The notes beneath the pieces are model-generated. The model worked only from the letters and a program-made list of their open reading frames with translations. It was not told the origin of the DNA and did no database searches. DNA of 39,633 nucleotides from an uncultured Methylococcaceae bacterium. GTDB lineage: Bacteria > Pseudomonadota > Gammaproteobacteria > Methylococcales > Methylomonadaceae. Of the stretch, positions 4,402 to 29,076 are shown in pieces. The stretch covers positions 1 to 39,633 of the forward strand of contig CAIOMN010000144.1 of the NCBI GenBank assembly GCA_903859415.1, written 5' to 3'. The translations under genes and the position numbers were made by a program. How positions within the stretch are numbered: the first letter of the stretch is position 1; every line of letters starts with the position of its first letter.

Positions 4402-5562
4402 TTATTCATCGTACCAATTACCAACCTGCCTCACTTGCTCCGATGGATTGTTTGCCCTATATCGTGGCAAGAGACCAGTGTTCGGATCAAAGAGTACTGT
4501 ACGCATTATCTGTACTAGCCCACTTGCTAATGTCCCCCCAGATTGAATAGCAATAGTCATAGCTGTGTAATATTCCATAAGGACATAGGCGGCATCATTA
4601 AGGACAAGTTCATCGTTGTCGTCTGTTATAGCGTCTGAAAGCGTATCAGAGACCTTGAATATAGCCGCTGTACCGTAAATCAGCTCATAAGGAGCTGGCA
4701 TTGAGAGGAAAAATGCCCCAAAACGCACATTTGTGAGCGCTGTACCATCGTAATTGACCGTTATCCTGGCGTAGTCTACAGCTGTCAAGGACACTGTTCC
4801 TGTTTGTGTAGCTGTTGCTAAATCTAATGCTAGAATTGTCCACTCTCCAGCTTTCCATGCGCCAAGCATTCCTGAAGTCGCTGTTATTTCAAAGTAAACA
4901 CTCGACGAGTTACCAAACCTAACCTTGATAGAAGTGATCGCCGTAGCTGATGGCAACATAACTGCTAAGAAAACTACACCTACGCCATTATAATCAGTCA
5001 AGTCTAAGTTGGGGATAGTCTTTTCTATGTATCCATTCGAGCCTCCCGCTGGAAGATTGAAGCGAATTGATGCCGGACTCTGATAATAGACTGCTAGATC
5101 CTGCGCCAAACTAGTTGCGGTCGTTGCGGTCCAGCCTGTAGTTGCTGTCATTGCATCTAGTATTGCCTTCCCACGTGAAGTGTTCTCTACAACACGCATA
5201 ATCTGTACACCTTTATTGTTTTCAAAAGTTACATGTGTACCATTTGCTAGCAGTAGTTTCGTTCTATCAAACTGTTGTATCGGTTTCTTATAAGTAAAGT
5301 TCCAATTTGATCTGGTTATCCCTTGTGGCCTCAAGTCTATGAAGTACCCGCCGAAGATTGATGTCGGTGCTAGATAATCGTATACCCCATTGTAGAGCGT
5401 ATAGTTCTGTCTACCCGTAGCCTCTGGAAGATCCGCTTGAGTTACAAGCTCTTTAGCCGCACGCTCAATAGCACCATTTAAGTTGGTGATATTGTTCAAG
5501 TTTATTCCCTGTAGCAAACCTGCTACTGAATCCTTAAGTTTTCCAACATTTTTTAGTGCCAT
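4402..5562 (-). CDS. Structural protein with central beta-sandwich (386 aa)
   Basis: Three parts can be seen. Residues 1-110 carry YNGVYDYLAPTSIFGGYFID and a basic strand. The central part, about 130-300, alternates strands (SIRFNLPAGGSNGYIEKTI, VRFGNSSSVYFEI, WTILALDLA) like a carbohydrate-binding or jelly-roll module. The C-terminal part, about 310-386, is helical and ends LLPRYRANNPSEQVRQVGNWYDE. The last part resembles adaptor or completion proteins that contact the portal. It sits between the membrane-anchored proteins and the hub gene, so a head-tail adaptor or tail component is the best guess. The family is not recognised. The start ATG follows AATCAAAAACTACA. Confidence 0.6.
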   Translation of the reverse strand: MALKNVGKLKDSVAGLLQGINLNNITNLNGAIERAAKELVTQADLPEATGRQNYTLYNGVYDYLAPTSIFGGYFIDLRPQGITRSNWNFTYKKPIQQFDRTKLLLANGTHVTFENNKGVQIMRVVENTSRGKAILDAMTATTGWTATTATSLAQDLAVYYQSPASIRFNLPAGGSNGYIEKTIPNLDLTDYNGVGVVFLAVMLPSATAITSIKVRFGNSSSVYFEITATSGMLGAWKAGEWTILALDLATATQTGTVSLTAVDYARITVNYDGTALTNVRFGAFFLSMPAPYELIYGTAAIFKVSDTLSDAITDDNDELVLNDAAYVLMEYYTAMTIAIQSGGTLASGLVQIMRTVLFDPNTGLLPRYRANNPSEQVRQVGNWYDE

Positions 5563-6150: not shown

Positions 6151-6675
6151 CTAGATTGTAATGAATTCTGCCTGACATTGACCAGTTACATTTGCGAGTT
6201 GAGCGCTAGTTGAAGCTAGAACCCAGACGTTAATGTAGCTATTTGCAGGTAGGTAAGTTGTTACAGGAGCAACCGCATAATCAAATGCTGTTGACGCTGT
6301 CTTTGCTGTACCAATAGTTGCAATAGTTGTTGTCGTTGCCGTAGCAGATGCTGCCCAACTTAATACCCAAGTGGTAGTTGTTGCAACACTTGTTGAATCC
6401 ATTTTAACACTAGCGAAAACCAATGATGATGTAGCAGCTGGAGTTTGGATAGAACATGGTATCTGTGAAGATACTGTCATGTTCACGTTTCGTCCTACAG
6501 TGTACAAGTAACGATCATTGATACCCAAACCTAGCGCATCATAGTTTGTAGCGCCTGATGGTGCTGCACCTACGATTGTCGGAACCGATTGATTACCACC
6601 AACCGAATTTCCAACTGAGATAAGGAGCGCAGCTAATGCAACTACTCCGATAACCCACGTAATGATTTTATTCAT
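6151..6675 (-). CDS. Membrane-anchored Ser/Thr-rich protein (174 aa)
   Basis: The start is placed at 6675 (MNKIITWVIGVVALAALLI) because the upstream frame would overlap the capsid gene, and because this ATG is preceded by the usual AT-rich leader (TATAACCAAAACAAA). Residues 5-22 form one membrane segment. The outside domain is Thr/Ala/Ser-rich and beta-like (SSLVFASVKMDSTSVATTTT, YLPANSYINVWVLASTS) and has two cysteines (SQIPCSIQ and GQCQAEF) that could form a disulfide outside the cell. It is the first gene after the major capsid protein and pairs with the similar gene at 5575-6081. Function is unknown. Confidence 0.75.
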   Translation of the reverse strand: MNKIITWVIGVVALAALLISVGNSVGGNQSVPTIVGAAPSGATNYDALGLGINDRYLYTVGRNVNMTVSSQIPCSIQTPAATSSLVFASVKMDSTSVATTTTWVLSWAASATATTTTIATIGTAKTASTAFDYAVAPVTTYLPANSYINVWVLASTSAQLANVTGQCQAEFITI

Positions 6676-6700
6676 TTTGTTTTGGTTATAGTGTGGTAAT

Positions 6701-7636
6701 CTACACAGCGCCTGTTGAACCAACTAGACCACTGTATTCTATACTGTCAACTTCCTCACGAGCGCGCATCTTGTAGATGTACTGGTCGTTAGCTTGTGTC
6801 TTCCAATCGACTAGATCAGTGAAGAAGCCCTCTCGCTCGAAGCGGTAGACTCCATGCTGACTAGAACCTACGAAGTAGGCTGTTGTTGATGTGCCATCCA
6901 AGAAAGGAGAGTAAACAACCTTCATTCCTGGATACATTTCTGACCAGTAGTTAAGGTCGTTGTTTCCTGTCCCTGCACGCAACACTGACTTAGCGACTGA
7001 CATACCAGTCTTGTGTAGTACTGAAGGTGTGAGCAAGAACTTTGGCTCATATCCTAGTATTACACCAGTCTGTGACAACTGAAGACGGAGAGAGCTGATA
7101 ACAACATTCAAGTTATCATCATTCAATACTCCTGTTTCGAGGTTGTCTACTGTGTCACCATTCTCATTTGTGTGAGAGTTGGAGAACAAGTATGCACTAT
7201 CGATTGTCTGATAAGTTGCGAAACCTCCAGAGTAGACACCGAAAGCATTACGATCTCGTGATGCCATCCAAGTCTTTGTCTGTTGATTGACTGCCTTTGA
7301 AACTGCTGACTGTTGCTGATCGGCCATGAAAGTACGAGCGATAGGAAGATTCTTCTTAAAGTTCGCAATTAAAGTCGTCTTAGCAGCTGCAGCTTTCAAA
7401 GAGGCATCCTTGTTCCAAGAAAGGTCATCCGTTGTCTTTTCAAAGTAGCCTCCACCGCCAATTACCGAAGTAACTACGGCAGCGTTTGAAGCTGTATCCT
7501 GTGTAAACACAACAGGATCTGTGGCCTCAGCCTTACCAGTAACAGCATTTTCCATTTGAGATTGATCTACAAGCTTATCTAGGGCTGTCTTGACTAGTAT
7601 TAAGGATGGGCCTGTGTTTTGTGTTAATCCTTGCAC
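6701..7636 (-). CDS. Major capsid protein, Mu gpT-like (311 aa)
   Basis: The sequence around residues 95-185 (FKKNLPIARTFMADQQ, RDRNAFGVYSGGFATYQT, SHTNENGDTVDNLETGVL) and FLLTPSVLHKTG matches the pattern of the Mu gpT-type HK97-fold capsid family. The C-terminus (REEVDSIEYSGLVGSTGAV) is also typical. It follows scaffold and decoration genes, as expected. The start is GTG at 7636, one base after the stop of an HNH endonuclease gene; no in-frame ATG exists before residue 28. The leader TATAAAATACTAAA is formed by the 3' end of the HNH gene. The HNH insertion therefore sits exactly at the capsid start, and the original leader may have been replaced. Confidence 0.85.
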   Translation of the reverse strand: MQGLTQNTGPSLILVKTALDKLVDQSQMENAVTGKAEATDPVVFTQDTASNAAVVTSVIGGGGYFEKTTDDLSWNKDASLKAAAAKTTLIANFKKNLPIARTFMADQQQSAVSKAVNQQTKTWMASRDRNAFGVYSGGFATYQTIDSAYLFSNSHTNENGDTVDNLETGVLNDDNLNVVISSLRLQLSQTGVILGYEPKFLLTPSVLHKTGMSVAKSVLRAGTGNNDLNYWSEMYPGMKVVYSPFLDGTSTTAYFVGSSQHGVYRFEREGFFTDLVDWKTQANDQYIYKMRAREEVDSIEYSGLVGSTGAV

Positions 7637-7637
7637 T

Positions 7638-8198
7638 TTAGTATTTTATAGTTTTCGTATGTTTTTTGACATTACAACTTAGACATAACGGTTGTATATT
7701 TTCTATGTTGTTACTGCCACCTTTTGAAAGGGGTATAATATGGTCCTCTGTGAGCTTTATGACTGGCTCATTCCTTTTACAACAAGGGCATATCCAGTTG
7801 TATTGAGCCTTTAGATTTTCCCATTCTTCCCATGAATGAGTACCATCTGCAAGCCTTTTTCTCGTATGCCACTTATTTCTAACAAATGAGATATACTCTT
7901 TATCTTTACATAATCCATGTTTATATAAATTTGAGTTCTCCCCACTTATTTGAATGACTCTTTTCTGTATATGATCTAACGATTGTTTCTTCCCAAGCTT
8001 TACCTGTCTAAACTTCTCCCTGGTTGCCAATGAGTAAGTCCTATTCTTAGCATTTTTACTCATCTTTTTTCTAGTTTCGATGCTAAACGGTTTTCTCTTT
8101 TTACCGATTTTACCATTATCGGCACATCGCCTAGAACAAAACTTACGTTTTTTCTTATCCGGGACAAATTCTTTGAAACAATAATCACAGAATTTCAT
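7638..8198 (-). CDS. HNH homing endonuclease with N-terminal zinc ribbon (186 aa)
   Basis: The start at 8198 is chosen because TATAAT (8210-8205) stands six bases before this ATG; a GTG two codons earlier is possible. C4, C7, C21 and C25 (CDYC...CSRRC) form a zinc knuckle. NUMOD3-like segments follow (KPFSIETRKKMSKNAKNR, YSLATREKFRQVKLGKK). The C-terminal HNH has CPCC at about 137-140, DHIIPLSKGGSNNIENIQP with catalytic His around 153, and CLSCN. The last part is nearly identical to the endonuclease at 21277-22101 (NIQPLCxSCNxxKHTKxIKY), so the two are paralogues. It separates decoration and capsid genes and carries its own promoter, typical of a free-standing homing gene. Confidence 0.92.
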   Translation of the reverse strand: MKFCDYCFKEFVPDKKKRKFCSRRCADNGKIGKKRKPFSIETRKKMSKNAKNRTYSLATREKFRQVKLGKKQSLDHIQKRVIQISGENSNLYKHGLCKDKEYISFVRNKWHTRKRLADGTHSWEEWENLKAQYNWICPCCKRNEPVIKLTEDHIIPLSKGGSNNIENIQPLCLSCNVKKHTKTIKY

Positions 8199-8204
8199 AA
8201 CCAC

Positions 8205-16223: not shown

Positions 16224-17738
16224 TTATTCTTCATCCTGCTTATCCACCTCCTGCATGTACTTAGGTTTTGGATTCTCAGATGCTATAGCAATGAGTGTAG
16301 TAGCAAATGTACCAGAAACGCTACATGCTTTCTCAAGAGCTATTCGTAATACCTTAACTGGATCTCGAACCCAATCCTCAATCATAAATCCTGATGGGGC
16401 TGTAGACATTATCTGTTCATATATAGCAAGCAATGGCTTCTTAAGTATATAAGTATCTGGCAACGATTCACTAATCTCTTTGAACGCAACACCAGCGCCT
16501 TTCACTACGCCCTCTTGTAGTGCTGCACGAACAGCATTCACCGCATCATCACACTTATCCTTCTTATATTTCCTCTCAACTTCTGAAGTTGCACCAACTT
16601 TTACAATAGCAAAGCCGGATGATAATTGTGCCAAACGCTCTCTCAGTTGCCTCTTTTCAAAATCTGACATAGATCCTTTAATAGCTTGATTGATCTCTGT
16701 AGTACGCTTTTCAACTCTTTCTTTAGCTTTCTCATCATTTTTGCCAGTCAAAACTGCGCTATAACGCTTCGCAACAATTCGCTCGGCATATCCTACGTCC
16801 GAAAGTTGTAGCGAATCCAATTCTCTAGTCTCAGTATTTATATACGTTCCACCAAGCACAACCGCAAGGTCCTTCATCACTTCATTCTGGTCTGTGTACG
16901 GAGCGTTGATAGGGAATATATTATACCCACGCTTTGTATTTTCCATACAATCCCGGATAGCCTGTTCAGTAAATGCTCTGGCAATAATCGCTACTTTATT
17001 CACACCTATCTTTTGCAACTGTTCAAGTATAGATACTAATGGATTCAAATTTGTAACAGTATGGTTAGTCAATATAGTTCTAACTTCATTGACCTCAAGC
17101 GCCTGCTTCTCAACATTATTAATTGCAACAGATGTACCAAAACCATTATCAATACGAACACCATAAACCTTCTCAACTGAACACTCACGTTCAGCAGATT
17201 CCTCTGCAATCAGCATTCCGTTCTCACCAAGTTCCCATTGAGCTGTACCAATAAGATCGGCAAGTTCCTTATTCTCAACAGAGACTAGAGCAGATTCTAT
17301 CAACTGTTCTTTACTATCAATTTTAACAGCCATAGCTTGTAACTTTTCAGTAACTTCTTTCCTCTCTTTTTCAATAGTACGAATAATCTCCGCAGGTGTA
17401 GCACCACCAATTATATTCTTTCCACTAGGTAACCTATTCACAGCTTCTTTCAAAATAGCTTGTGCAAGTGTTATGGCAGTTGTAGTACCATCTCCAGCTT
17501 CGTCGTTAGTCTTTATGGCTGCTTCACGCAGAATACAAATACCACGGTTCTCTATCTCATCTTTCAACCATATCTCACGAGCGATAGTTACCCCATCATT
17601 GGTAATCCTGTTCCCTTTCTCCATTGCTGCATTGGCACCATACGGACCAAGGGTACTTTTTACTGCATCTGCTAGATAGTTAGCACCTTTAATAAGATTG
17701 TTACGAGCCTCTACACCTACTTGTACTATTTTATTCAT
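16224..17738 (-). CDS. groEL: Phage-encoded chaperonin GroEL (504 aa)
   Basis: Type I chaperonin. ATP-site motifs are present: TLGPYGANAAM at 29-39, NDGVTIARE at 47-55 and AGDGTTTA at 81-88 with the key Asp (D83). The intermediate-domain motif YKKDKCDDAVNAVRAALQEG includes the catalytic Asp equivalent to E. coli D398, followed by GAGVAF where GroEL has GGGVA. The apical domain is present. The length is shorter than E. coli GroEL (548 aa) and the GGM tail is missing; the tail here is acidic (EVDKQDEE). No groES is found in the window, so it must use host GroES or work alone as some phage GroELs do. The ATG overlaps the stop of a 58-aa zinc-type ORF (ATGA). It probably helps fold capsid or fibre proteins. 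Confidence 0.95.
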   Translation of the reverse strand: MNKIVQVGVEARNNLIKGANYLADAVKSTLGPYGANAAMEKGNRITNDGVTIAREIWLKDEIENRGICILREAAIKTNDEAGDGTTTAITLAQAILKEAVNRLPSGKNIIGGATPAEIIRTIEKERKEVTEKLQAMAVKIDSKEQLIESALVSVENKELADLIGTAQWELGENGMLIAEESAERECSVEKVYGVRIDNGFGTSVAINNVEKQALEVNEVRTILTNHTVTNLNPLVSILEQLQKIGVNKVAIIARAFTEQAIRDCMENTKRGYNIFPINAPYTDQNEVMKDLAVVLGGTYINTETRELDSLQLSDVGYAERIVAKRYSAVLTGKNDEKAKERVEKRTTEINQAIKGSMSDFEKRQLRERLAQLSSGFAIVKVGATSEVERKYKKDKCDDAVNAVRAALQEGVVKGAGVAFKEISESLPDTYILKKPLLAIYEQIMSTAPSGFMIEDWVRDPVKVLRIALEKACSVSGTFATTLIAIASENPKPKYMQEVDKQDEE

Positions 17739-20660: not shown

Positions 20661-21284
20661 CTATGGCATGTATTGCACAGGTGCAACTGGGGATAACTCT
20701 TTAGACCGAGCAAAAGCTTCCATCTCCGCACGAGCAGAGTTAATTCTCGCCCCCATTTGCAAAATATCTTTCATCGAGCGTTTTGTTTCAAAAGTATAAA
20801 CCTTGATCGGTTTAACAAAATCCAAACTGAAGTCGCCATTTTCTTTAGTCAATATATTTTGTAACTGGATGTGTAAACTCTCCGGTTTAACCTTGTGTTG
20901 TATATACAGCAATAGGGCATAAAATGTGAGTTGTCCGTGCGAGTCAACTTTTTCTCTAGTCCAGGGCTTCTTACTTGTTTTGAACTCGCCAAGTTTTGTA
21001 TGCGGTTCGTAAGTATCGCAGTATCCGACAAGTGGAATGTTATTGAACATTACCTTTAGTTTGTACTCAACCTTAGAATACAAAGTTACCGGCGCAAGCG
21101 GTTTACCTTTCTCACATGACTCTGCAAAAAGTCGCCCCAACGCCATTTCTTTATTATCCTCTTCTTTTTCGTTTAATATATACTTTGCGAACCATTTTTC
21201 TTTATCATACTCCCAGCTAGAAAGTTGGCTCCACGAAAAACTGCGCTGCTGCCATGTCTTGATTTTTTCTTCTATGTTAGACAT
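20661..21284 (-). CDS. Cas4/RecB-like PD-(D/E)XK exonuclease (207 aa)
   Basis: FSWSQLSSWEYDKEKWFAKYIL at the start is the typical opening of this superfamily. Catalytic residues: D90 (VGYCDTYEP), E100 and K102 (GEFKTSKKPW), then QLTFYALL at 118-125 (QxxxY motif). The usual N-terminal His is not clear; ALGRLFAE replaces GxxxH. No Fe-S cysteine cluster is seen, so it differs from true Cas4. No CRISPR genes are near; a role in phage recombination or DNA end processing is likely. Its first 8 bases overlap the end of the HNH gene; AAAATATA from that gene is its leader. Confidence 0.85.
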   Translation of the reverse strand: MSNIEEKIKTWQQRSFSWSQLSSWEYDKEKWFAKYILNEKEEDNKEMALGRLFAESCEKGKPLAPVTLYSKVEYKLKVMFNNIPLVGYCDTYEPHTKLGEFKTSKKPWTREKVDSHGQLTFYALLLYIQHKVKPESLHIQLQNILTKENGDFSLDFVKPIKVYTFETKRSMKDILQMGARINSARAEMEAFARSKELSPVAPVQYMP

Positions 21285-22101
21285 TATATTTTATAATTTT
21301 AGTATGTTTTCGGCTGTTACATGATTGGCATAAGGGTTGTATATTATCAATATTATCACTTCCTAAACAATGAATTGGAATAATATGGTCTCTATGCAGT
21401 TTGATCTCTGGTTCAAATCTCTTGCAACATAGACACATATAATTACATTTTTTCTTTAATTCTTCCCACTCTTCTTCAGTATGGAAACCCCCGACCTTAA
21501 GTTTGATATTTTTTCTTTTCCTATGAGAAGCACAATAGATTTTGTTCAGATGTTTTTTATCTTTAGATATTCCACCTTTCCAATTATGATGTAATGATCC
21601 ACACCTTTTCTTATTCATAGAAACAAATCTGTCAACGTTTTCTTTAGAATTAGGTTGAAATTTATGGTGTTCACTTATTTTTCGCCTATGTTCTGGCGAG
21701 ACTATCTGTCCTTTATGAATTTTACTCATTTTTGCCCGTGTCTCTGGAGAATAATATCTTCCAACGAGTCCCAAACTTATTTTTCTTTTATGTTCAGAGG
21801 TGAAGATTCTTTTCTTCATAGCGATTCTAATTTTCTCTTTCGTTTCTTCTGAAAGTCGTTTACCTTTTTGCGATTCGCTCATTCGCTTTTTGTGTTCTTT
21901 CGAGAAAACTCTTCCCTTTAGAGCATTTCTTAACTTCTCCCTTGTTTCTGGTGTTTTTATTCTTCCTATACCAGCTTGTCTAATCTTCTCAAGAGATTCT
22001 GGAGTATGTCTTTTACCGTAAAAAGGATTTTTGTTACCTATTTTCTGTTCTCGCAATTTTCTGCTTGTCTCTATTGGATTTTTTGAAATTCCTTTTGGCA
22101 T
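21277..22101 (-). CDS. HNH homing endonuclease with NUMOD3 repeats (274 aa)
   Basis: The N-terminal two-thirds has about six NUMOD3-type DNA-binding repeats (NPFYGKRHTPESLEKIRQAG, KKRMSESQKGKRLSEETKEK, LGLVGRYYSPETRAKMSKIH). The C-terminal HNH domain has CLCC near 223-226, DHIIPIH at 238-244, NIDNIQPLCQSCN and the end KHTKIIKYNV. This end is shared with the HNH protein at 7638-8198. The frame closes 8 bases inside the Cas4-like gene start. A -10-like TGTTATCAT stands seven bases before the ATG. A free-standing homing endonuclease that likely cuts intronless relatives near this site. Confidence 0.92.
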   Translation of the reverse strand: MPKGISKNPIETSRKLREQKIGNKNPFYGKRHTPESLEKIRQAGIGRIKTPETREKLRNALKGRVFSKEHKKRMSESQKGKRLSEETKEKIRIAMKKRIFTSEHKRKISLGLVGRYYSPETRAKMSKIHKGQIVSPEHRRKISEHHKFQPNSKENVDRFVSMNKKRCGSLHHNWKGGISKDKKHLNKIYCASHRKRKNIKLKVGGFHTEEEWEELKKKCNYMCLCCKRFEPEIKLHRDHIIPIHCLGSDNIDNIQPLCQSCNSRKHTKIIKYNV

Positions 22102-22400: not shown

Positions 22401-22997
22401 ATGATAAAAAATACAAAGAGTTTGGTTCCGCTACAGAGAAAAGTGTCAGTGATCGCCGAGCAGGTTGAAGCCTTAAAAATAGTAGACGCCACATCGATGA
22501 AAAGAGGTGTGGTTATGTTGTCTACAATAAATGTCTATGGCGACAGTGTGGTGGCTCAAAAGAAGAAACTTACGTCCACGATCAACGAATCGTTGAAGAA
22601 CATCAGAGAAATGTTCCGCCCCCTTGAACAATCTTATGAAGGTGCCGTAGAAATGCTACGCACCAAGATGCAGGTTTATCAGACTCAAGAAGTCGCTCGT
22701 GTCCGTGAAGAGGAAGCGAAGATTGCGGCAAGGGTAAAGGAAGGCCGTGGCAACCTCACTATAGATACCGCAGTAAAAAAAATGGAAGCTATAGCAACAC
22801 CAGAGAAGGAGGTAGCCACCGATCAAGGCCTTGTACAATTCCGTGAGACAAAGATACTGAAAGTGCTAGACATCAATCTGATCCCTAAAGAATACTTCAA
22901 CCTCGATGAAGGACGATTACTAAAGGCGTTGAAATCAGGTATAGAAGTTGCTGGTGCAACGACAGAGACGATTCAGGTTCCGGTCAACTATCGCTAG
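22401..22997 (+). CDS. Coiled-coil early protein (198 aa)
   Basis: Central coiled coil (about 60-115: KKKLTSTINESLKNIREMFR, QTQEVARVREEEAKIAARVK) and a C-terminal domain with VQFRETKILKVLDINLIPKEYF..DEGRLLKALKSGIEVAGAT. This end is common in phage proteins encoded beside single-strand annealing or ssDNA-binding proteins. First gene of the rightward transcript. Probable recombination accessory protein; activity unknown. Confidence 0.65.
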   Translation: MIKNTKSLVPLQRKVSVIAEQVEALKIVDATSMKRGVVMLSTINVYGDSVVAQKKKLTSTINESLKNIREMFRPLEQSYEGAVEMLRTKMQVYQTQEVARVREEEAKIAARVKEGRGNLTIDTAVKKMEAIATPEKEVATDQGLVQFRETKILKVLDINLIPKEYFNLDEGRLLKALKSGIEVAGATTETIQVPVNYR

Positions 22998-22998
22998 T

Positions 22999-23030
22999 CT
23001 TATCCCGCTTGCGGCCGATCAAGCAATAAG
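22999..23030 (+). other. Intercistronic hairpin and 141-nt gap
   Basis: Nested stems CTTAT/ATAAG and GCTTG/CAAGC directly after the stop codon at 22997. No U-run follows. The gap to 23138 holds no gene that can be supported and ends in the AT-rich leader TAAATAAACCTAAAAAAA of the next gene. Confidence 0.45.
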
Positions 23031-23138
23031 AGATATTATTAGATAATTAGTAAAGATTTTCTGTAGATAACGGACGAACATTGTGCATTGATTGTCATAG
23101 AAAAACTATTACTTACGGCGTAAATAAACCTAAAAAAA

Positions 23139-23966
23139 ATGAAAAAAATAAATAATGAGATAACAACCGAACAAATAAATGAGCTAAATTTAGCGTATCC
23201 AATATCGGAAGATTCTAACCGCCTTCAACTTCCACGCTTCGGATGTATTTCAAAAGATATTGTTGAGGAAACGGGATCGGGCAAGAATAAGAAGATTACA
23301 ATAATCCAACCAAGTGGCACATTCTTCACGGAGAAAGACGAAGGAGAAGTAAACGAAGACGGTAAGAAAGTGTGGACCAAAACTTACCTAGAGGGGGAGA
23401 TGCAAGATGTACAGATCGTATATCATCGCCGACAGTTGAGAAAGTTCGACTCATCCCTAGAGAAGTTTATCAGTTCGCCAATCTTCGATAATGGAGAGCA
23501 AATAATTCCGTTGTATCTTGATAAGCAAATCATACAGCGTGGCACACAAGCGCAGTTGCAGAAACTTTACCCAGCCCTGACACAGAAAGGCAAGCCGACA
23601 TCAGATCTTCGTGAAGAGACGATCCTTTACGTCATCTACAACGGCGAGTTGCACCAGATGAATCTTAGCCAGTCCTCGAAATGGGAATTCAAGTTGTACG
23701 CAAAATCCATTAACCCTTCAACAGTTGTTACAACACTAGGTAGCGTTGAAGAGACTTTTGGAAAGAACACTTATAGGAAGGTCACCTTTAAGAGTGCCGG
23801 TCTTATCAACCGCGATCAGTTTGAAGTGGTCAAAGAGAATCAGACGATTCTCAAGGCCACCGTCGAATCCGATCAGAAGTTCTTCTTAGCGGCTGGAACA
23901 CCTGATAAGGACTTCGATAAAGAAGCCGCCGAAATAGAAGCAAGCGCTACCAAAGCATTAAATTAG
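23139..23966 (+). CDS. Putative ssDNA-binding protein (275 aa)
   Basis: Beta-rich protein: LQLPRFGCISKDIVEETGSG, TIIQPSGTFFTEKDEGE, YLEGEMQDVQIVYHRRQLR, then ETILYVIYNGELHQMNLS and a charged C-terminal tail (EAAEIEASATKALN). The layout resembles phage OB-fold ssDNA-binding proteins encoded with annealing proteins and nucleases. The tail is less acidic than in T7 gp2.5. Placed between a coiled-coil accessory protein and a helicase, DNA recombination or replication is likely. Confidence 0.55.
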   Translation: MKKINNEITTEQINELNLAYPISEDSNRLQLPRFGCISKDIVEETGSGKNKKITIIQPSGTFFTEKDEGEVNEDGKKVWTKTYLEGEMQDVQIVYHRRQLRKFDSSLEKFISSPIFDNGEQIIPLYLDKQIIQRGTQAQLQKLYPALTQKGKPTSDLREETILYVIYNGELHQMNLSQSSKWEFKLYAKSINPSTVVTTLGSVEETFGKNTYRKVTFKSAGLINRDQFEVVKENQTILKATVESDQKFFLAAGTPDKDFDKEAAEIEASATKALN

Positions 23967-23982
23967 TCACACATTCTCTCTG

Positions 23983-24001
23983 CCCATGATCGCCTCATGG
24001 G
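23983..24001 (+). other. Perfect intercistronic hairpin
   Basis: CCCATGA-TCGCC-TCATGGG, 7-bp stem 17 nt after the stop at 23966, without a U-run. Similar in place to the hairpin at 22999; possibly an RNA processing or stability element separating the first genes. Confidence 0.5.
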
Positions 24002-24024
24002 TGGAATAGAGCGTATGAAAAGTT

Positions 24025-24141
24025 ATGCACCACAAAAAGAAAACTAAATTTTTAGAAAATCTTGGGTGGAATATTTATAGATTCAAGAATGAGGAAATTA
24101 TGAAGGACATAACTAAAATATTAAATGCCATCGCTCTATAA
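24025..24141 (+). pseudogene. 38-aa fragment like the C-terminus of DUF559 / Vsr-type nucleases
   Basis: KTKFLENLGWNIYRFKNEEI matches the end of DUF559 domains (pattern 'R..yLe..Gw.v.RF.n.ev..n...vl..I'). The catalytic part that should precede it is absent; upstream is a hairpin and the previous gene. It overlaps the helicase start by 17 bases. It is either a decayed nuclease remnant or a small gene that reuses this helix-strand-helix piece. Confidence 0.55.
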
Positions 24142-25261
24142 ACACCAACAGTCCTTCCTCGATAAACATTTAGACAAAGCATTGGTTTGTTTCGATGCCG
24201 GCACTGGGAAAACTTTGACCGCCGTCGAATGGCTCCGTCCACGACAAGGCAACGCCATCGTGGTTGTACCAAAAAGGATCGAGGATAAGTGGAAAAAAGA
24301 ACTGGGAGACGTGAAGGCCACAGTGATTACAAAAGAACAGTGGAAGAAGACTGACTTTATTGATCCAACAGCACTTGTTATAGATGAGGCGCAGTTTCAT
24401 TCGTCTGGGTTGTTTACTAAAGGGCGTAGTCAACTTGCGACGAAGACTTACAACTTTATCAAGAAGTATCCGAATATGCCGGTATTATTGCTCACAGCCA
24501 CGCCAGTTTCTTCAACGCCTGCAAACTTACATACACTTTTATGTTACATCGGAGTATATGTTCCATGGAATAAATGGAGAGAAGAATTTTACAACTTGAT
24601 GAGGTTACCATATTTACCACGTCCCGCGTGGATTCCTAAGCCAGACTGGCGTACTAGGATACGCCCATGGCTCTTGAAATACGCTCACATAGCTCTTATG
24701 GGAGATTGTGTGGAGTATTTACCGCCTATCACTGAAGAAGTGCTTAAAACGCCGTATAAACCGTTACAACAGTTGTCAGAATTGACTCCAATGGGGCGTT
24801 TTGTTGAAGAACACCGAAATGAACAACTAGAGAAAGGAAAGGTAATACGAGAGATCGGCGCAGAATATAGAAAAGTTATGGTTGTAGCACATTTTCGTGA
24901 ACAAATAGCCCAATTAGAAAAGGAACTGTCAAAGGACAAAAAAGTATATGTCCTACATGGAGGGGTAAAGGATCAGGAAGCCGTTATCGAACAGGCACAA
25001 GAAGATGATGAGTGTTTTTTCTTATGTCAAAATCAAGTTGGCGTTGGATTCGATGCCGACACTTTTAATGTAATGATCTTTGCTTCGCAGTCATATAGTT
25101 ATGTGTCGATGGTTCAGATGAAAGCCCGCATAAGACGTATACACGCTTTGAAACCAGTTAAATATATTTATCTACAATCAGGTCGATGTGATAAAGCAGT
25201 TTATAAACAACTTCAATTAGGAAAAGACTTCGATGTTGCCGAATTTACCAAAACAAAATAA
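24125..25261 (+). CDS. SF2 DNA helicase / SNF2-like ATPase (378 aa)
   Basis: Motif I DAGTGKT at 24-30, motif II IDEAQ at 86-90, motif III TATP at 124-127 and motif VI QMKARIRRIH at 331-340. Compact length (SNF2 cores are usually larger). Final segment has VYVLHGGVKD (motif IV) and NQVGVGFDADT (motif V). Likely remodels replication or recombination intermediates together with the overlapping nuclease gene. Start leader AACTAAAATATTAA. Confidence 0.9.
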   Translation: MPSLYKHQQSFLDKHLDKALVCFDAGTGKTLTAVEWLRPRQGNAIVVVPKRIEDKWKKELGDVKATVITKEQWKKTDFIDPTALVIDEAQFHSSGLFTKGRSQLATKTYNFIKKYPNMPVLLLTATPVSSTPANLHTLLCYIGVYVPWNKWREEFYNLMRLPYLPRPAWIPKPDWRTRIRPWLLKYAHIALMGDCVEYLPPITEEVLKTPYKPLQQLSELTPMGRFVEEHRNEQLEKGKVIREIGAEYRKVMVVAHFREQIAQLEKELSKDKKVYVLHGGVKDQEAVIEQAQEDDECFFLCQNQVGVGFDADTFNVMIFASQSYSYVSMVQMKARIRRIHALKPVKYIYLQSGRCDKAVYKQLQLGKDFDVAEFTKTK

Positions 25262-25631
25262 AAGGAAGGAAGCCTCCTTCTCCTTGAAATTCCGAGAATG
25301 GCTTATGAAGAATCCTCGCATATCCTGTTCATTCGAGATGAAGGATACTAGAGGTAAGAACTCTTTGAAGTTTAGCGAGGTCACAGATGTCCAACGCAAC
25401 TACGGCATGTCTATAAAGAGTGACAAAGGAACACTGATCCGTGTGCAAGGTTTGGCAGGTGAACCTGATTATGTGTACTTTAGAAATGCACCGTCATATT
25501 TGGTAATCAACTATCCGCAGGGATGGGTTATATTAGATATCGAAACATTCATCATGGAGGACAAACGATCAAAAGTCCGTAGTTTGTCATGGAATAGAGC
25601 CAGAGAGTTATCCACAGTTGTGGTTGCTTGA
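25233..25631 (+). CDS. PD-(D/E)XK endonuclease, resolvase-like (132 aa)
   Basis: E35-M-K37 in SFEMKDTRGKNSLKF, followed by SEVTDVQRNYG with Q54 and GEPDYVYF with D79. The order ExK, Q, then (P)D, with a final strand SYLVINYPQGWVILDI, resembles small phage Holliday-junction-resolvase-like nucleases. The first 29 bases overlap the helicase gene, so the two work together, perhaps branch migration plus cleavage. Exact substrate is unknown. Confidence 0.7.
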   Translation: MLPNLPKQNKRKEASFSLKFREWLMKNPRISCSFEMKDTRGKNSLKFSEVTDVQRNYGMSIKSDKGTLIRVQGLAGEPDYVYFRNAPSYLVINYPQGWVILDIETFIMEDKRSKVRSLSWNRARELSTVVVA

Positions 25632-25655
25632 CTTATACATACGATAGACTACAAT
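25608..25655 (+). promoter_or_regulatory. Second rightward promoter with operator and DnaA-box-like site
   Basis: TTATCCACA (25608-25616), -35 TTGACT (25628-25633), 16-bp spacer containing TACATACGATAGA (25636-25648), -10 TACAAT (25650-25655). Geometry is the same as at 22321-22368 to the base. Leader about 25 nt to the ATG at 25687. Confidence 0.8.
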
Positions 25656-25686
25656 ATCTATATATTAGTAATTAAGATAAAAATAT

Positions 25687-25830
25687 ATGTCAAAAGAAGA
25701 TAATAAACTATCGTACGAAGAAGCAGTAGATGAAGTGTTTTGTTACGGTGAAGAGCGTAGCATGATCGAGGAAGCGTTTGATGATCTAAAGGTCGAACAA
25801 CTAGCACACCTAACCGAAACACTGGCATGA
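25687..25830 (+). CDS. 47-aa acidic protein
   Basis: Begins MSKEDNKLSYEEAVDEVFCY; strongly acidic and helical. First gene after the second rightward promoter; its stop overlaps the next start as ATGA. Short acidic first-expressed proteins in phages are often host-takeover or anti-defence factors, but nothing specific can be seen. Confidence 0.65.
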   Translation: MSKEDNKLSYEEAVDEVFCYGEERSMIEEAFDDLKVEQLAHLTETLA

Positions 25831-25919
25831 CTCCAAGAGAACAAATACTATGGTTCGTCGGTTTCACCTCATTATCAATCGTCGTACTGGTCTCGTACAT
25901 AATCCTAAAAGTATCATGA
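25827..25919 (+). CDS. 30-aa single-span membrane peptide
   Basis: MTPREQILWFVG then a hydrophobic stretch ending LVSYIILKVS. Start and stop both overlap neighbours as ATGA (25827-25830 and 25916-25919), strong support for translation. Function unknown. Confidence 0.65.
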   Translation: MTPREQILWFVGFTSLSIVVLVSYIILKVS

Positions 25920-26089
25920 ACAAACTCACCAAAGACGACATTATAAATGCGTGTACGCACCTACAAACAGCCCTTTTAGAAGAATTAGAAGCTAACGAAA
26001 TGGAAGTAGAATCAAAGACTAAGAAGATAGCGGCACATTATAATGTTATGAAGGCGAAGGATAAGTTGAGAGACATTAGTAATTATTAG
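25916..26089 (+). CDS. 57-aa helical protein
   Basis: The start is placed at 25916 (MNKLTKDDIINACTHLQTAL) by ATGA overlap; the longer frame would begin inside the previous gene. Glu/Lys-rich coiled coil (LLEELEANEMEVESKTKKIA). Not recognised. Confidence 0.6.
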   Translation: MNKLTKDDIINACTHLQTALLEELEANEMEVESKTKKIAAHYNVMKAKDKLRDISNY

Positions 26090-26096
26090 CCACACC

Positions 26097-26480
26097 ATGA
26101 AAAATAATCTAACAAAGCATGTGCTGAATATCGGTAAGGAGTTTGATGAGAACTTAGTACAGATGAGTCCTCTTCGTGGACAGGATATGCACAACCGACC
26201 AGTTTTGTACGATGTCGAATATGACAGAATTGATGAAATCAAATCCCACCTTCTCCTCTCCAAGTTGAAGACTATTGAGCTGGTTAAAGAGGAGTTGGAG
26301 GTAAAGAAACTCGAATTGAAACATCAAGATACGTGCTTGGCAGTCGGCGAAAATGGCAAAATCAACGAACACTATTGCGATTGTAGATACCAAGAAATTG
26401 TGGCGTACAATAATGGTATTGTCCAAGCCATCACCCTCCTAGACACTATTATTCAAGAGATTAAATTGCAAATGAAATGA
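26097..26480 (+). CDS. 127-aa protein with a CxC site
   Basis: Helical (LLLSKLKTIELVKEELEVKK) then HQDTCLAVGENGKINEHYCDCRY with Cys/His that may bind zinc, and a C-terminal helix AITLLDTIIQEIKLQMK. The last helix is coded by a 30-bp sequence repeated exactly at 26802. Coupled to the next gene by ATGA. Not recognised. Confidence 0.6.
   Translation: MKNNLTKHVLNIGKEFDENLVQMSPLRGQDMHNRPVLYDVEYDRIDEIKSHLLLSKLKTIELVKEELEVKKLELKHQDTCLAVGENGKINEHYCDCRYQEIVAYNNGIVQAITLLDTIIQEIKLQMK
26437..26466 (+). repeat. 30-bp direct repeat, copy 1
   Basis: Identical to 26802-26831, 365 bp downstream. Here it codes LDTIIQEIK near the C-terminus of the 127-aa protein. Confidence 0.9.
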
Positions 26481-26686
26481 AAGAGATAGATATAAACAAA
26501 ATCAGAGGAAAATGGGAAGAAGTTGTTGGCATCGGAGGTACATTTAGAATAGCTGGTGGCGATGACACGATTGAGTCAGTCAAAATGGTTGCAGAAAAAG
26601 TCAACGAGATTATTAAATTTATAAATAGTTACAAAATACTTTATGAAGAAATTACAGAGACAGAAACTACAAAAAACAATGGATAG
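26477..26686 (+). CDS. 69-aa unknown protein
   Basis: Starts MKEIDINKIRGKWEEVVGIG; mixed alpha/beta, with a helix EIIKFINSYKILYEEITETE. ATGA overlap with the previous gene and 8-base overlap with the next. Not recognised. Confidence 0.55.
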   Translation: MKEIDINKIRGKWEEVVGIGGTFRIAGGDDTIESVKMVAEKVNEIIKFINSYKILYEEITETETTKNNG

Positions 26687-26792
26687 GAAGTGGTCGAACC
26701 TACAAAAACTAGGACTTCCGTATGGTATGGCATGGATTGCCAAGCATGATGAGCTAATGCAGTGGTATGAGAAAGAATTAAAAAAGATATGA
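26679..26792 (+). CDS. 37-aa protein
   Basis: MDRKWSNLQKLGLPYGMAWI, Trp-rich and basic at the end. It overlaps both neighbours (8 bases before, ATGA after). This tight packing supports translation. Not recognised. Confidence 0.5.
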   Translation: MDRKWSNLQKLGLPYGMAWIAKHDELMQWYEKELKKI

Positions 26793-27016
26793 CCTCAAAC
26801 TTCCTAGACACTATTATTCAAGAGATTAAATCAACAAATATGAAACACATATATCCACCAATCAAAGGATTGCAAGATTTAATAGACATGGTTAACAAGC
26901 AAGATGACACAGACATATCTGCACTATTTAACACAGCCTATATTCGTGGGTATGGACAAGGTTGTGAAGATACAAAGAAACATATTACTCTTATAATAAA
27001 TGCCAATAACAACTAA
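26789..27016 (+). CDS. 75-aa protein with a duplicated N-terminus
   Basis: MTSNFLDTIIQEIKSTNMKH: the first residues repeat the end of the 127-aa protein through the 30-bp direct repeat. The rest (YPPIKGLQDLIDMVNKQDDT, AYIRGYGQGCEDTKKHI) is helical. It looks like a chimera formed by recombination. Unknown function. Confidence 0.55.
   Translation: MTSNFLDTIIQEIKSTNMKHIYPPIKGLQDLIDMVNKQDDTDISALFNTAYIRGYGQGCEDTKKHITLIINANNN
26802..26831 (+). repeat. 30-bp direct repeat, copy 2
   Basis: Exact copy of 26437-26466 at the start of the 75-aa gene. Recombination between the copies would delete 365 bp and fuse the two genes in frame. Confidence 0.9.
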
Positions 27017-27017
27017 C

Positions 27018-27482
27018 ATGTTCAAAGATACAAAAGACGGCGAAACACACTCATTTGACCTACAGTTCTGTAGTCGTTGCTTAACGATGACTAATCACTT
27101 GAAAGGATTATGTCAACAGTGTTCTTATAAAATGGATACCACAAAAACAACTATGAACAAACTTAGACAGAAGATAGGACTTAGTGACTTTAAGCACGAA
27201 TGTTGCGATGGTGAGTGTAGGCATGACGACTGCTGTGGTAAAGTATCAGAGAATTGTCCTAAACCCCATGAGTGTACTGCTGGAAAGACATGTACTGATA
27301 CTGACTTCAAACTAACTGGATATAAAGGTTGCCCACACCTCCACTTAGGAGATATGCAAGCGTTCATACCTTATTTTATAAGTGATGAGTTTCCAAAGGG
27401 GAAAAGTAAGGCTAGAGGTCAGGCGATATTACATGTAGCATTATTTCTCGATTGGATGAAAAAACACACTTCAACAACATGA
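27018..27482 (+). CDS. Cys-rich zinc protein (154 aa)
   Basis: Start at 27018 is taken because it follows the previous stop by 1 nt; 27000 is an alternative. An N-terminal ribbon CSRC..CQQC, then a Cys/His-dense centre (HECCDGECRHDDCCGKVSENC, CTAGKTC) and a C-terminal folded part (GDMQAFIPYFISDEFPKGKS, ILHVALFLDWMKK). At least 13 Cys suggest several zinc sites. Coupled to the next gene by ATGA. Not recognised. Confidence 0.6.
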   Translation: MFKDTKDGETHSFDLQFCSRCLTMTNHLKGLCQQCSYKMDTTKTTMNKLRQKIGLSDFKHECCDGECRHDDCCGKVSENCPKPHECTAGKTCTDTDFKLTGYKGCPHLHLGDMQAFIPYFISDEFPKGKSKARGQAILHVALFLDWMKKHTSTT

Positions 27483-27784
27483 AAACACTACACAACGAAA
27501 AATCACCTGATGAATGTCCAGCATGTAAAGAAAGTGTCTGGGTAAATGCTGATAGACTTATGACTAGAGATGAGACTATACTTGAGGTGTTAGAATACAT
27601 CCGTACTAAGTTAGTAGGTAAATCTTACACAGACGCAAAGTATGTAGCAGATGATATAGAGGAGTATTTTGCATTAGGTACGAGAAAACTAGAAGGTTGT
27701 GAGCATGTCTGGGAAGCTGTTATAGAGGGATTTTATAGAATCGAAACATGCCGATTTTGTAAGTTGACAAGGAGTAGGGGTTAG
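27479..27784 (+). CDS. Zinc-finger protein (101 aa)
   Basis: Start 27479 by ATGA overlap; a longer in-frame start at 27452 is less likely. N-terminal CPAC, then helices (ETILEVLEYIRTKLVGKSYT), then GCEHVWEAVIEGFYRIETCRFC forming the second half of a zinc site. The last protein gene before the structured RNA. Possibly RNA- or DNA-binding. Confidence 0.6.
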   Translation: MKTLHNEKSPDECPACKESVWVNADRLMTRDETILEVLEYIRTKLVGKSYTDAKYVADDIEEYFALGTRKLEGCEHVWEAVIEGFYRIETCRFCKLTRSRG

Positions 27785-27796
27785 CTCTTTACAAAC

Positions 27797-28185
27797 GAAT
27801 GTGCATCTATTTCCCCGCCAGTTAAGGCCGAAACACAAAACTATTTCGGGTCAAACTTGGGAATGCAACCTTAAACGGGGGAACGGATGCACATTCAATC
27901 TGGTGAGCAGTCAGCAGGAGGTAGGTCGCTATAGCATATCAACGCTTGCCACCTTCTGCCGTTTGCTCATCATACATTGGAGGATAGAAATCTGCGGTTG
28001 GTGTAATCTCGCTTAATTACACTACAGGAATAGCTTACCTTACCATTTGCAATGGAGGTCGTGATTCCGCCGCAGTTTCCTGTCCTTCAATTGAACCCTA
28101 GACCGATGCTCGTGGATGGGGAATGCAATCGAAAGATTGTTTCTCGTCCCGTCCCGCATCCGTGAGCATCATTCTGGGGTTGCAA
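27797..28185 (+). ncRNA. Structured non-coding RNA of about 390 nt, class not recognised
   Basis: The 400-nt gap before the tRNA folds into consecutive helices seen directly. P1 27797-27807/27886-27896 (11 bp perfect) encloses P2 27811-27817/27876-27883 (one bulged G), P3 27822-27827/27869-27874 and P4 27828-27833/27844-27849. A second hairpin is 27901-27909/27964-27972 with 27914-27922/27951-27959 (9 bp each). A multibranch domain is closed by 27982-27987/28080-28085 and 27992-27997/28070-28075, holding hairpins 28001-28007/28016-28022 and 28027-28031/28064-28068 with 28043-28047/28051-28055. A last domain is 28094-28102/28173-28181, 28105-28111/28164-28170, 28114-28118/28157-28161 and a GAAA-capped 28126-28130/28135-28139. 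Four helices contain G.U pairs that would be A.C on the other strand, so the plus strand is the RNA. No RNase P or tmRNA signature is seen. ROOL and GOLLD RNAs are known large phage RNAs near tRNAs, but similarity to them was not recognised. A weak promoter (TTGACA at 27764) could start near P1. Confidence 0.8.
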
Positions 28186-28257
28186 TCAGGGGTAGAGTAA
28201 CGGTGACTCGTTTGCCTCATAAGCAAAAGATAGGTGGTTCGACTCCACCCTCCTGAA
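28186..28257 (+). tRNA. tRNA with CAT anticodon (Met, possibly Ile2)
   Basis: Complete cloverleaf: acceptor TCAGGGG/CTCCTGA (7 bp, one G.U), D arm GAGT/ACTC with GG in the loop, anticodon stem TTTGC/GCAAA around CTCATAA (CAT at 28218-28220), 5-nt variable loop, T arm GGTGG-TTCGACT-CCACC, discriminator A. CCA is not encoded. The first pair U1-A72 excludes the usual bacterial initiator (C1xA72 mismatch). Elongator Met and lysidine-modified Ile2 share this anticodon and cannot be separated here. Confidence 0.93.
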
Positions 28258-28258
28258 C

Positions 28259-28292
28259 AAAAAGAGCGGAAGTTCATAAAACCGCTCTTTTT
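28259..28292. terminator. Bidirectional intrinsic terminator
   Basis: AAAAAGAGCGG - 12-nt loop - CCGCTCTTTTT. The stem ends in U5 on both strands. It stops the rightward transcript after the tRNA and the long leftward transcript after the gene ending at 28313. Confidence 0.93.
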
Positions 28293-28312
28293 GCGTGTAC
28301 CCGCATAGGGCA

Positions 28313-28504
28313 CTATCTAATCCTAGCACCTGCAATAGTTACTCCGCCAGCCTTTACACGCCTATACCATATCCATAGACCTGCAACAATAGTTACAATA
28401 GTCTGAATGGCAGTAGTAACAGACGCATTATCTACTTGTACTCCGATCATTGGTAGGATTTGAACGAGTAAGATGGCGACGACCGAAGTGATTGTTTGAC
28501 TCAT
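28313..28504 (-). CDS. Holin-like two-span membrane protein (63 aa)
   Basis: Start at 28504 (MSQTITSVVAILLVQILPMI) because the upstream frame would begin before the promoter's start site. Two membrane segments (about 5-22 and 33-48, IQTIVTIVAGLWIWY) then a basic tail (RRVKAGGVTIAGARIR). This pattern is frequent in Patescibacteria and their phages and looks like a small holin. Last leftward gene, with its own extended -10 promoter. Confidence 0.7.
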   Translation of the reverse strand: MSQTITSVVAILLVQILPMIGVQVDNASVTTAIQTIVTIVAGLWIWYRRVKAGGVTIAGARIR

Positions 28505-28534
28505 AGTAGTTTGGTTACTGATAATATGTTCTAT

Positions 28535-28543
28535 ATTATACCA
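28535..28543 (-). promoter_or_regulatory. Extended -10 promoter of the holin-like gene
   Basis: TGGTATAAT on the minus strand, about 30 bases before the ATG at 28504. Leadered, unlike the TATAAT-N6-ATG cases. Confidence 0.65.
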
Positions 28544-28591
28544 TAGAAAAGAGCACAACCGTAGTTATGCTCCATGAACCCGTGTCACGAA

Positions 28592-28780
28592 CTAATCGTG
28601 ATATTGAGACGGGGGTGGAGGATAGCGAGGAGGATTATGCCTCACCCATTCCTCATGTTGCACACGACACATGGCGTCGAAGCATGAATACTTGCCATAA
28701 GAGGCGAAGAAGATAACAACCTTCTTGCCACAGAAACTACATTTCTGGAGTTCTGCTTTCATCGGTAGGTCTAACTGCAT
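28592..28780 (-). CDS. Small zinc-ribbon protein (62 aa)
   Basis: CSFCGKK and a second Cys pair in YSCFDAMCRVQHEEW form a zinc ribbon. The C-terminus is Pro-rich (HNPPRYPPPPSQYHD). The start overlaps the previous gene by 10 bases; an internal Met at residue 7 is an alternative. Unknown role. Confidence 0.55.
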   Translation of the reverse strand: MQLDLPMKAELQKCSFCGKKVVIFFASYGKYSCFDAMCRVQHEEWVRHNPPRYPPPPSQYHD

Positions 28781-29076
28781 ACTATCTGTCCTTCCTTGAT
28801 GGGGATTTTCTCAACGCAGATAAATTCCCAGCGTTGGTCAATCCATTTTTTATTGATGATTTCTGCAATGACTGGCGGGAGATGGTTTGAAAATAAGGAA
28901 TGCCAACTGTCATGTTGTCGCTTCTCGACAATACTGATGTTGCACTTTCCTTCGTCTGTGAGAACTTGTCCTCCGTTCGATTGGCACCTTAAATGATGTC
29001 GTGACTCGCCTTGACGCATTTTAAGACGCAGGCGACGATAAGCTTTCTTGCCATTACGCTTTTGTGTTCGTGTCAT
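28771..29076 (-). CDS. Small HNH-like endonuclease (101 aa)
   Basis: Basic N-terminus (MTRTQKRNGKKAYRRLRLKM) then SRHHLRCQSNGG, N of CNISIVEKRQHDSWHSLFSN and a C-terminal helix. The order HH...GG...N...H..WH.LF.N is seen in small HNH-type proteins of phages and Patescibacteria. It is unrelated to the two NUMOD/HNH proteins. No zinc knuckle is seen. It may act in packaging or recombination. Confidence 0.6.
   Translation of the reverse strand: MTRTQKRNGKKAYRRLRLKMRQGESRHHLRCQSNGGQVLTDEGKCNISIVEKRQHDSWHSLFSNHLPPVIAEIINKKWIDQRWEFICVEKIPIKEGQIVCS

Follow-up and report, generated by a model that had tools for sequence, protein, structure and literature searches.

A large predicted structured RNA joined to a CAT-anticodon tRNA at the end of a phage operon

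The locus and its gene order

The window, by which we mean the whole 39,633-nt stretch of DNA analysed, is one contig of a 3.7-Mb assembly (280 contigs). It is phage-like, encoding a terminase, a capsid-like protein, a D5/P4-type primase-helicase, a helicase and a GroEL-like chaperonin; the last of these (16224–17738) is conserved across a group of environmental phages. A rightward operon on the plus strand (22401–27784) holds the genes of a Gp157-like protein (below the Pfam cut-off), a helicase and small unknown proteins, and is presumed from its gene content to be early. Twelve nucleotides after the operon, a structured stretch of 389 nt begins (27797–28185, plus strand), followed by a tRNA with a CAT anticodon (28186–28258, plus strand) and an intrinsic terminator (28259–28292, plus strand). 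The G+C content is about 48% in the structured stretch and about 37% in the preceding operon. The minimum of the cumulative GC skew lies away from it, at about 21–23 kb.

Leftward genes start from 28313 onward. The nearest is a convergent holin-like gene (28313–28558, minus strand), whose match to the SPP1 holin scored 23.6 bits and did not reach the Pfam cut-off of 27. It is followed by a small convergent gene (28771–29076, minus strand) with a homologue in the relative G101 and a weak one in the relative G488. The protein of this gene presents the pattern RHH...GG...N...H..W, has no Pfam match above the cut-off and is possibly HNH-like. Elsewhere in the window, 21277–22101 encodes a NUMOD3/HNH homing-type endonuclease, and its C-terminal HNH part and the end of ORF 7638–8204 both match the same segment of G101 (L008, 9627–9779).

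The tRNA is complete, as the sequence-only reading of this locus had claimed. ARAGORN assigned it as tRNA-Met(CAT), and both the cloverleaf and the score of the Rfam tRNA model (28186–28257, 60.4 bits) place it among tRNAs. It has no encoded CCA. Since AUA is frequent, accounting for 284 of the 767 isoleucine codons in the ORFs taken as genes, the tRNA could be a lysidine-modified Ile2 rather than Met. No second match to it was found in its own assembly, and a search of 192 genomes of the phylum of G476 returned one genome with a partial match (81%).

The strong terminator that had been claimed after the tRNA is also present, with an 11-bp stem (28259–28269/28282–28292) and A and T tracts, as read from the sequence. 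It is missing from the automated scan because its loop is 12 nt, while the scan allows 3–8. Having both tracts, the terminator could be bidirectional, in which case the convergent transcript would be stopped before the structured stretch. The element has no conspicuous promoter of its own: 27400–28400 holds 2 promoter-like sites, with 1.6 expected.

Coding potential and predicted fold

Each of the six frames of the element had coding log-odds below zero (−0.39 to −0.87 per codon); 11 ORFs nearby, themselves part of the training set of the codon table, scored 0.02 to 0.33. The earlier claim that no gene is supported here was thereby borne out. Two chance ORFs in the element scored −0.25 and −0.19 and have no Pfam match, and a coding role was rejected; tblastn of the first against phages returned no match.

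Folding strength was compared with that of shuffled sequences. The plus strand of 27785–28190 (406 nt) folded at −171 kcal/mol, while the mean of its shuffles was −113.6 (z −10.40), and none of 100 shuffles folded as well. Folding was thus more stable than composition predicts, as is looked for in a functional structured RNA. The minus strand of the same stretch folded at −156.9 (z −8.21). The contig was then scanned in 390-nt windows with 12 dinucleotide shuffles each, comprising 302 window-strands on a grid and two placed purposely on the element. The latter two (27797 plus, z −11.7; 27797 minus, z −9.1) were at the top of all 304. When only the grid was considered, the best three all overlapped the element (28081 minus, z −6.8; 27821 plus, z −6.5; 27821 minus, z −6.1), and the best grid window outside it had a z of −5.1. 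When 200-nt windows were judged by their G+C, the element reached −4.3 and single windows in phage relatives reached up to −5.5. Hence the individual hairpins are unremarkable, and it is the length and continuity of the structure that are extraordinary.

The element is predicted to form four tandem long-hairpin domains. Domain I (27797–27896), delineated from the helix list of the predicted fold and as an inverted repeat, has at its base a 12-bp stem (11 Watson–Crick pairs and a U.G), an A.C mismatch and an 8-bp stem; the perfect 11-bp stem reported earlier is its basal part (27797–27807/27886–27896). Above the 8-bp stem, either the CCA/UGG and GUU/AAC helices or a competing UUAAGG/CCUUAA helix may form, with nearly equal energies (−39.5 vs −39.4). 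Domain I also contains a CCGAAA/UUUCGG hairpin and a large loop with most of one copy of the decamer GGGAATGCAA. Domain II (27901–27972) comprises a 10-bp stem, U-U and A-C mismatches, a 9-bp stem and small apical stems. In domain III (27976–28091) a long stem leads to a three-way junction carrying two hairpins, in agreement with the multibranch domain described before. Domain IV (28092–28185) has a short closing helix, 9-bp and 14+4-bp stems, the expected GAAA-capped hairpin (loop 28131–28134) and the second decamer. The 9-bp stems of the sequence-only reading are present at 27914–27922/27951–27959, 27999–28007/28016–28024 and 28094–28102/28173–28181; they are not perfect, as each holds one G.U pair. 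The two copies of GGGAATGCAA lie where they had been reported, at 27859–27868 in domain I, of which 27861–27868 is unpaired in the minimum-energy fold, and at 28119–28128 in domain IV; this 10-nt sequence is the sole direct-repeat family at the repeat-scan setting used.

The ensemble diversity of the RNA and tRNA folded together was 47.6. The whole fold is therefore loosely defined, and individual pairs should not be over-read. By domain, the diversity was lowest in domain IV (3.5) and was 5.2, 6.3 and 11.2 in the other three. Pseudoknots were looked for as Watson–Crick runs of at least 5 that would link segments left unpaired in the minimum-energy fold, and no such loop–loop contact was found. 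Domain IV is closed by the pairs 28092–28093/28183–28184 when folded with the tRNA and by 28090–28093/28183–28186 when folded alone. In the former fold the last pair, at 28184, is one base short of the tRNA, whose first nucleotide is 28186. RNase P prefers an open leader, and a stem that reaches the tRNA or ends one base before it differs from that; release of the tRNA by RNase P is nonetheless plausible.

The strand on which the structure acts was assessed by building stems from Watson–Crick pairs only and tallying the symmetric mismatches within them. The tally comprised 7 G.U, 2 A.C, 1 U.U and 1 C.U, none of them contributed by domain I, in which inspection by hand added one further A.C (27809/27884) and one further G.U (27808/27885). 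The excess of G.U over A.C (7 vs 2; one-sided sign test by hand, approximately 0.09) weakly favours an RNA of the plus strand, and the hairpins fold on the minus strand too. The earlier claim of G.U pairs valid only on the plus strand thus held in that G.U pairs occur in all four domains, while the strand preference that they convey is weak.

Searches for relatives and known families

Nucleotide searches, which may miss diverged structured RNA, returned no relative of the element. With the RNA alone as the query, blastn in its distant setting gave zero matches in plasmids (E up to 1) and in phages (E up to 10). A query extended by the tRNA matched 258 phage records, and the 20 matches listed all lie at query position 490 or later, in the tRNA and terminator. 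In genomes, matches were found in 2 of 101 kindred genomes, 4 of 369 of the same class and 1 of 379 of the Patescibacteria phylum, with at most two candidates scored per genome in the latter two sets. Two of these seven matches are the window itself and the other five are only 22–36 nt long. The match in L002 was rejected, as it lies where a reading frame with GGDEF-like sequence ends. L047 and L117 both match the same part of domain II, and their surroundings, compared by eye, are alike in nothing; L048 and L049 were examined by tRNA scan. The element is present as a single copy in its own assembly (E up to 0.001).

Phage relatives were collected through the GroEL-like protein (25 viral loci) and the capsid protein (32 viral loci). 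Relatives of the capsid protein also occur in two MAGs that bear the titles of candidate phyla radiation bacteria, Candidatus Falkowbacteria (39%) and Candidatus Microgenomatus (38%). At E up to 10, the RNA matched 1 of 3, 1 of 6 and 6 of 29 phage-relative records, with a best E of 0.0123 and all matches 11–28 nt long. The surroundings of three matching records presented no such RNA, and none of the 38 records yielded a relative of it, many of them being fragments that possibly lack this region. Two early-gene queries found no match in viral_contigs. A scan of viral_contigs for TKGGGAATGCAAYCKWAA gave three matches, none with a tRNA and all coding by eye (in L045, inside a 186-aa ORF); a scan for two copies of the decamer gave five, again none with a tRNA, of which, by eye, four lie in tandem repeats and one in other sequence. 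Both sets were rejected. Strongly folded stretches in relatives were listed as well, including one at 11461 of L051, and the structured stretches of L041, L039, L033, L106 and L109 showed no likeness to the element by eye.

A covariance model, R1, was built from domain IV only, with one sequence entered twice. Among 65 sources it matched the window alone, on both strands; among 274 genomes of the same class it matched the window's own genome and a hairpin in L119; and among 286 genomes of the phylum of G475, a set with no positive control, it matched none. The L119 hairpin, which we take to resemble a common REP-like repeat, scored 45.7 bits. The window's own reverse strand scored 45.6 bits, and the equality of the two indicates a generic hairpin shape.

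The site itself varies between relatives. G101 is syntenic, with the homologue of 28771–29076 at 6614–6880 and the preceding rightward gene ending at 6260; between 6260 and 6614 there are a convergent 69-aa ORF and, by eye, a short hairpin, and neither such an RNA nor a tRNA. G101 also encodes a predicted protein (L007:3076–3672) in which a short sequence of the type LSGNVTG is repeated in tandem. At L106:5084–5498, G488 has a cluster of five tRNAs (His, Pro, Leu, Arg, Gln), which 172 nt holding a possible 52-aa ORF separate from a small convergent gene. The latter matched the G101 homologue at E 2.5e-5, while the window's own 28771–29076 protein did not reach E 0.01 against it, so that the five-tRNA cluster is only probably at the equivalent site. 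The stretch that follows the rightward genes of G490 shows no unusual folding (z −0.86). G484 has homologues of the helicase and of the gene after it, and directly behind these comes a gene on the opposite strand, with no such RNA seen. Beside another homologue of 28771–29076, an intergenic stretch (L121:4220–4500) is more stably folded than 200 shuffles of it (z −4.61); its sequence likeness to the window RNA is limited to chance matches of 10–21 nt. The place of the RNA and tRNA thus appears to behave as a variable cargo slot, empty in G101 and probably filled with tRNAs in G488.

All 4227 models of Rfam 15 were compared with the whole window, and only tRNA reached its gathering score. At E up to 10, 27780–28330 gave 11 other matches (miRNA, snoRNA, CRISPR repeat and others), all far below gathering, the best being mir-7950 on the minus strand (E 0.0038, 26.5 bits vs a gathering score of 82). 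The covariance models of GOLLD and ROOL, whose motifs the sequence-only reading had likewise failed to recognise, matched neither at gathering in the whole window nor, with filters set permissively, at E up to 10 in 27780–28330. By this measure the element is not a member of either family. As described in PMC12286853, GOLLD and ROOL are Rfam families of phage- or prophage-encoded RNAs, often near tRNA islands and with no known function. Like GOLLD, the element is phage-borne and near a tRNA. One studied GOLLD sits downstream of a Met-tRNA, and many GOLLD RNAs exceed 800 nt (PMC12286853); here the RNA precedes the tRNA and is about 390 nt long, and the loop–loop contacts looked for were not found. 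According to the same source, ROOL shares the setting of a phage or prophage RNA near tRNA islands and has no known protein partner, and its 659-nt example has multiple predicted pseudoknots; the element has four tandem hairpin domains. ROOL is also marked by assembly into a homo-oligomeric RNA cage; in the minimum-energy fold of the element, Watson–Crick runs of 5 or more that might join unpaired segments were not found. Titles and abstract openings in the literature, including those of the surveys PMC8040213 and PMC2864571, contain no report of this RNA, and the available parts of PMC12911398 and PMC13059738 contain nothing bearing directly on it.

The tRNA cluster of phage T4 reportedly includes two stable RNAs, C and D, which are co-transcribed with the tRNAs, have no known function and are much shorter than the element; a literature search by titles and abstract openings gave no confirmation of this.

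Possible role of the element and competing explanations

The core of the earlier interpretation, namely that the rightward transcript ends in a large structured non-coding element with a tRNA joined to it, is supported by the fold and the gene order. As a structured RNA matching no catalogued Rfam family it looks real, albeit as a single example and by predicted structure. We favour a phage non-coding RNA of about 390 nt that would form, together with the tRNA, the 3' part of the operon transcript (probability roughly 0.55). It would be co-transcribed with the tRNA and probably processed from the tRNA precursor, in a context like that of GOLLD and ROOL. Transcription of the operon would run through to the terminator at 28259–28292. 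The four hairpin domains would fold into a compact, probably nuclease-resistant body. RNase P would cut between 28185 and 28186 and the host would add CCA, freeing the tRNA and leaving the RNA body. During infection the latter might then work in trans, as a scaffold or decoy, a speculation by analogy with GOLLD and ROOL. This reading is favoured by folding far beyond that of shuffles, six non-coding frames and the elevated G+C, by the orientation common to operon and tRNA with the terminator directly after, by the likewise phage-encoded GOLLD and ROOL as an analogy, by the prevalence of G.U over A.C, and by a site that is empty in G101 and has five tRNAs in G488. It is weakened by the single sequence, the minus-strand z of −9.1, the ensemble diversity, the lack of a standout promoter and of loop–loop runs, and the equally strong folding, for their G+C, of single 200-nt windows in relatives.

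Chief among the alternatives is a tail acting in cis. As a structured spacer or 3' UTR, the hairpins would protect the operon mRNA against 3' exonucleases or adjust the maturation of the tRNA, and no free-standing RNA would act in trans. The position of the element at the operon end, ahead of the tRNA and terminator, suits such a tail, as do domain IV ending at or one base before the tRNA and a structure of mostly elongated hairpins in which loop–loop contact was not found. However, the intrinsic terminator already supplies a 3' hairpin, and in our judgement 389 nt with a three-way junction seem beyond what protection needs; we consider this reading rather unlikely. A smaller chance is given to an element acting as DNA, whose hairpins or cruciforms would be used in replication, packaging or recombination with no role as RNA. 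Folding on both strands, the D5/P4-type primase-helicase of the phage and intergenic hairpin stretches in relatives (e.g., L041, approximately 4900–5400) are consistent with it, whereas the better folding of the plus strand and the excess of G.U mismatches (both modest), the distant skew minimum, the absence of the element from the same place in G101 and its junction with a tRNA count against it.

Insertion of mobile hairpin repeats of the REP or MITE type beside the tRNA would account for a site that differs between relatives, and the domain IV model did match the L119 hairpin, which looks REP-like. Yet the element is single-copy in its own assembly, its internal direct repeat is only 10 nt, and the L119 score is that of the window's reverse strand, which leaves this explanation very improbable. 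Slighter still is the prospect that the element belongs to GOLLD, ROOL or another known family and has diverged past the reach of the models: the phage and tRNA context would fit, but GOLLD and ROOL were unmatched even with permissive settings, and the element is shorter than the GOLLD RNAs and the ROOL example described in PMC12286853.

Within the favoured reading, we tentatively suggest, with more doubt than confidence, that the element is the first representative of a novel class of 'ornate' phage RNAs, smaller than GOLLD and ROOL, which would share a single precursor transcript with a tRNA and act in trans during infection. Why large phage RNAs of the GOLLD and ROOL kind adjoin tRNAs is an open question. 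If the suggestion is true, the element would offer a small system for studying the role of such RNAs and for telling whether the tRNA belongs to the mechanism or is a mere neighbour. The case is distinctive in being compact, unrelated to GOLLD and ROOL, directly joined to a tRNA and located at a variable site.
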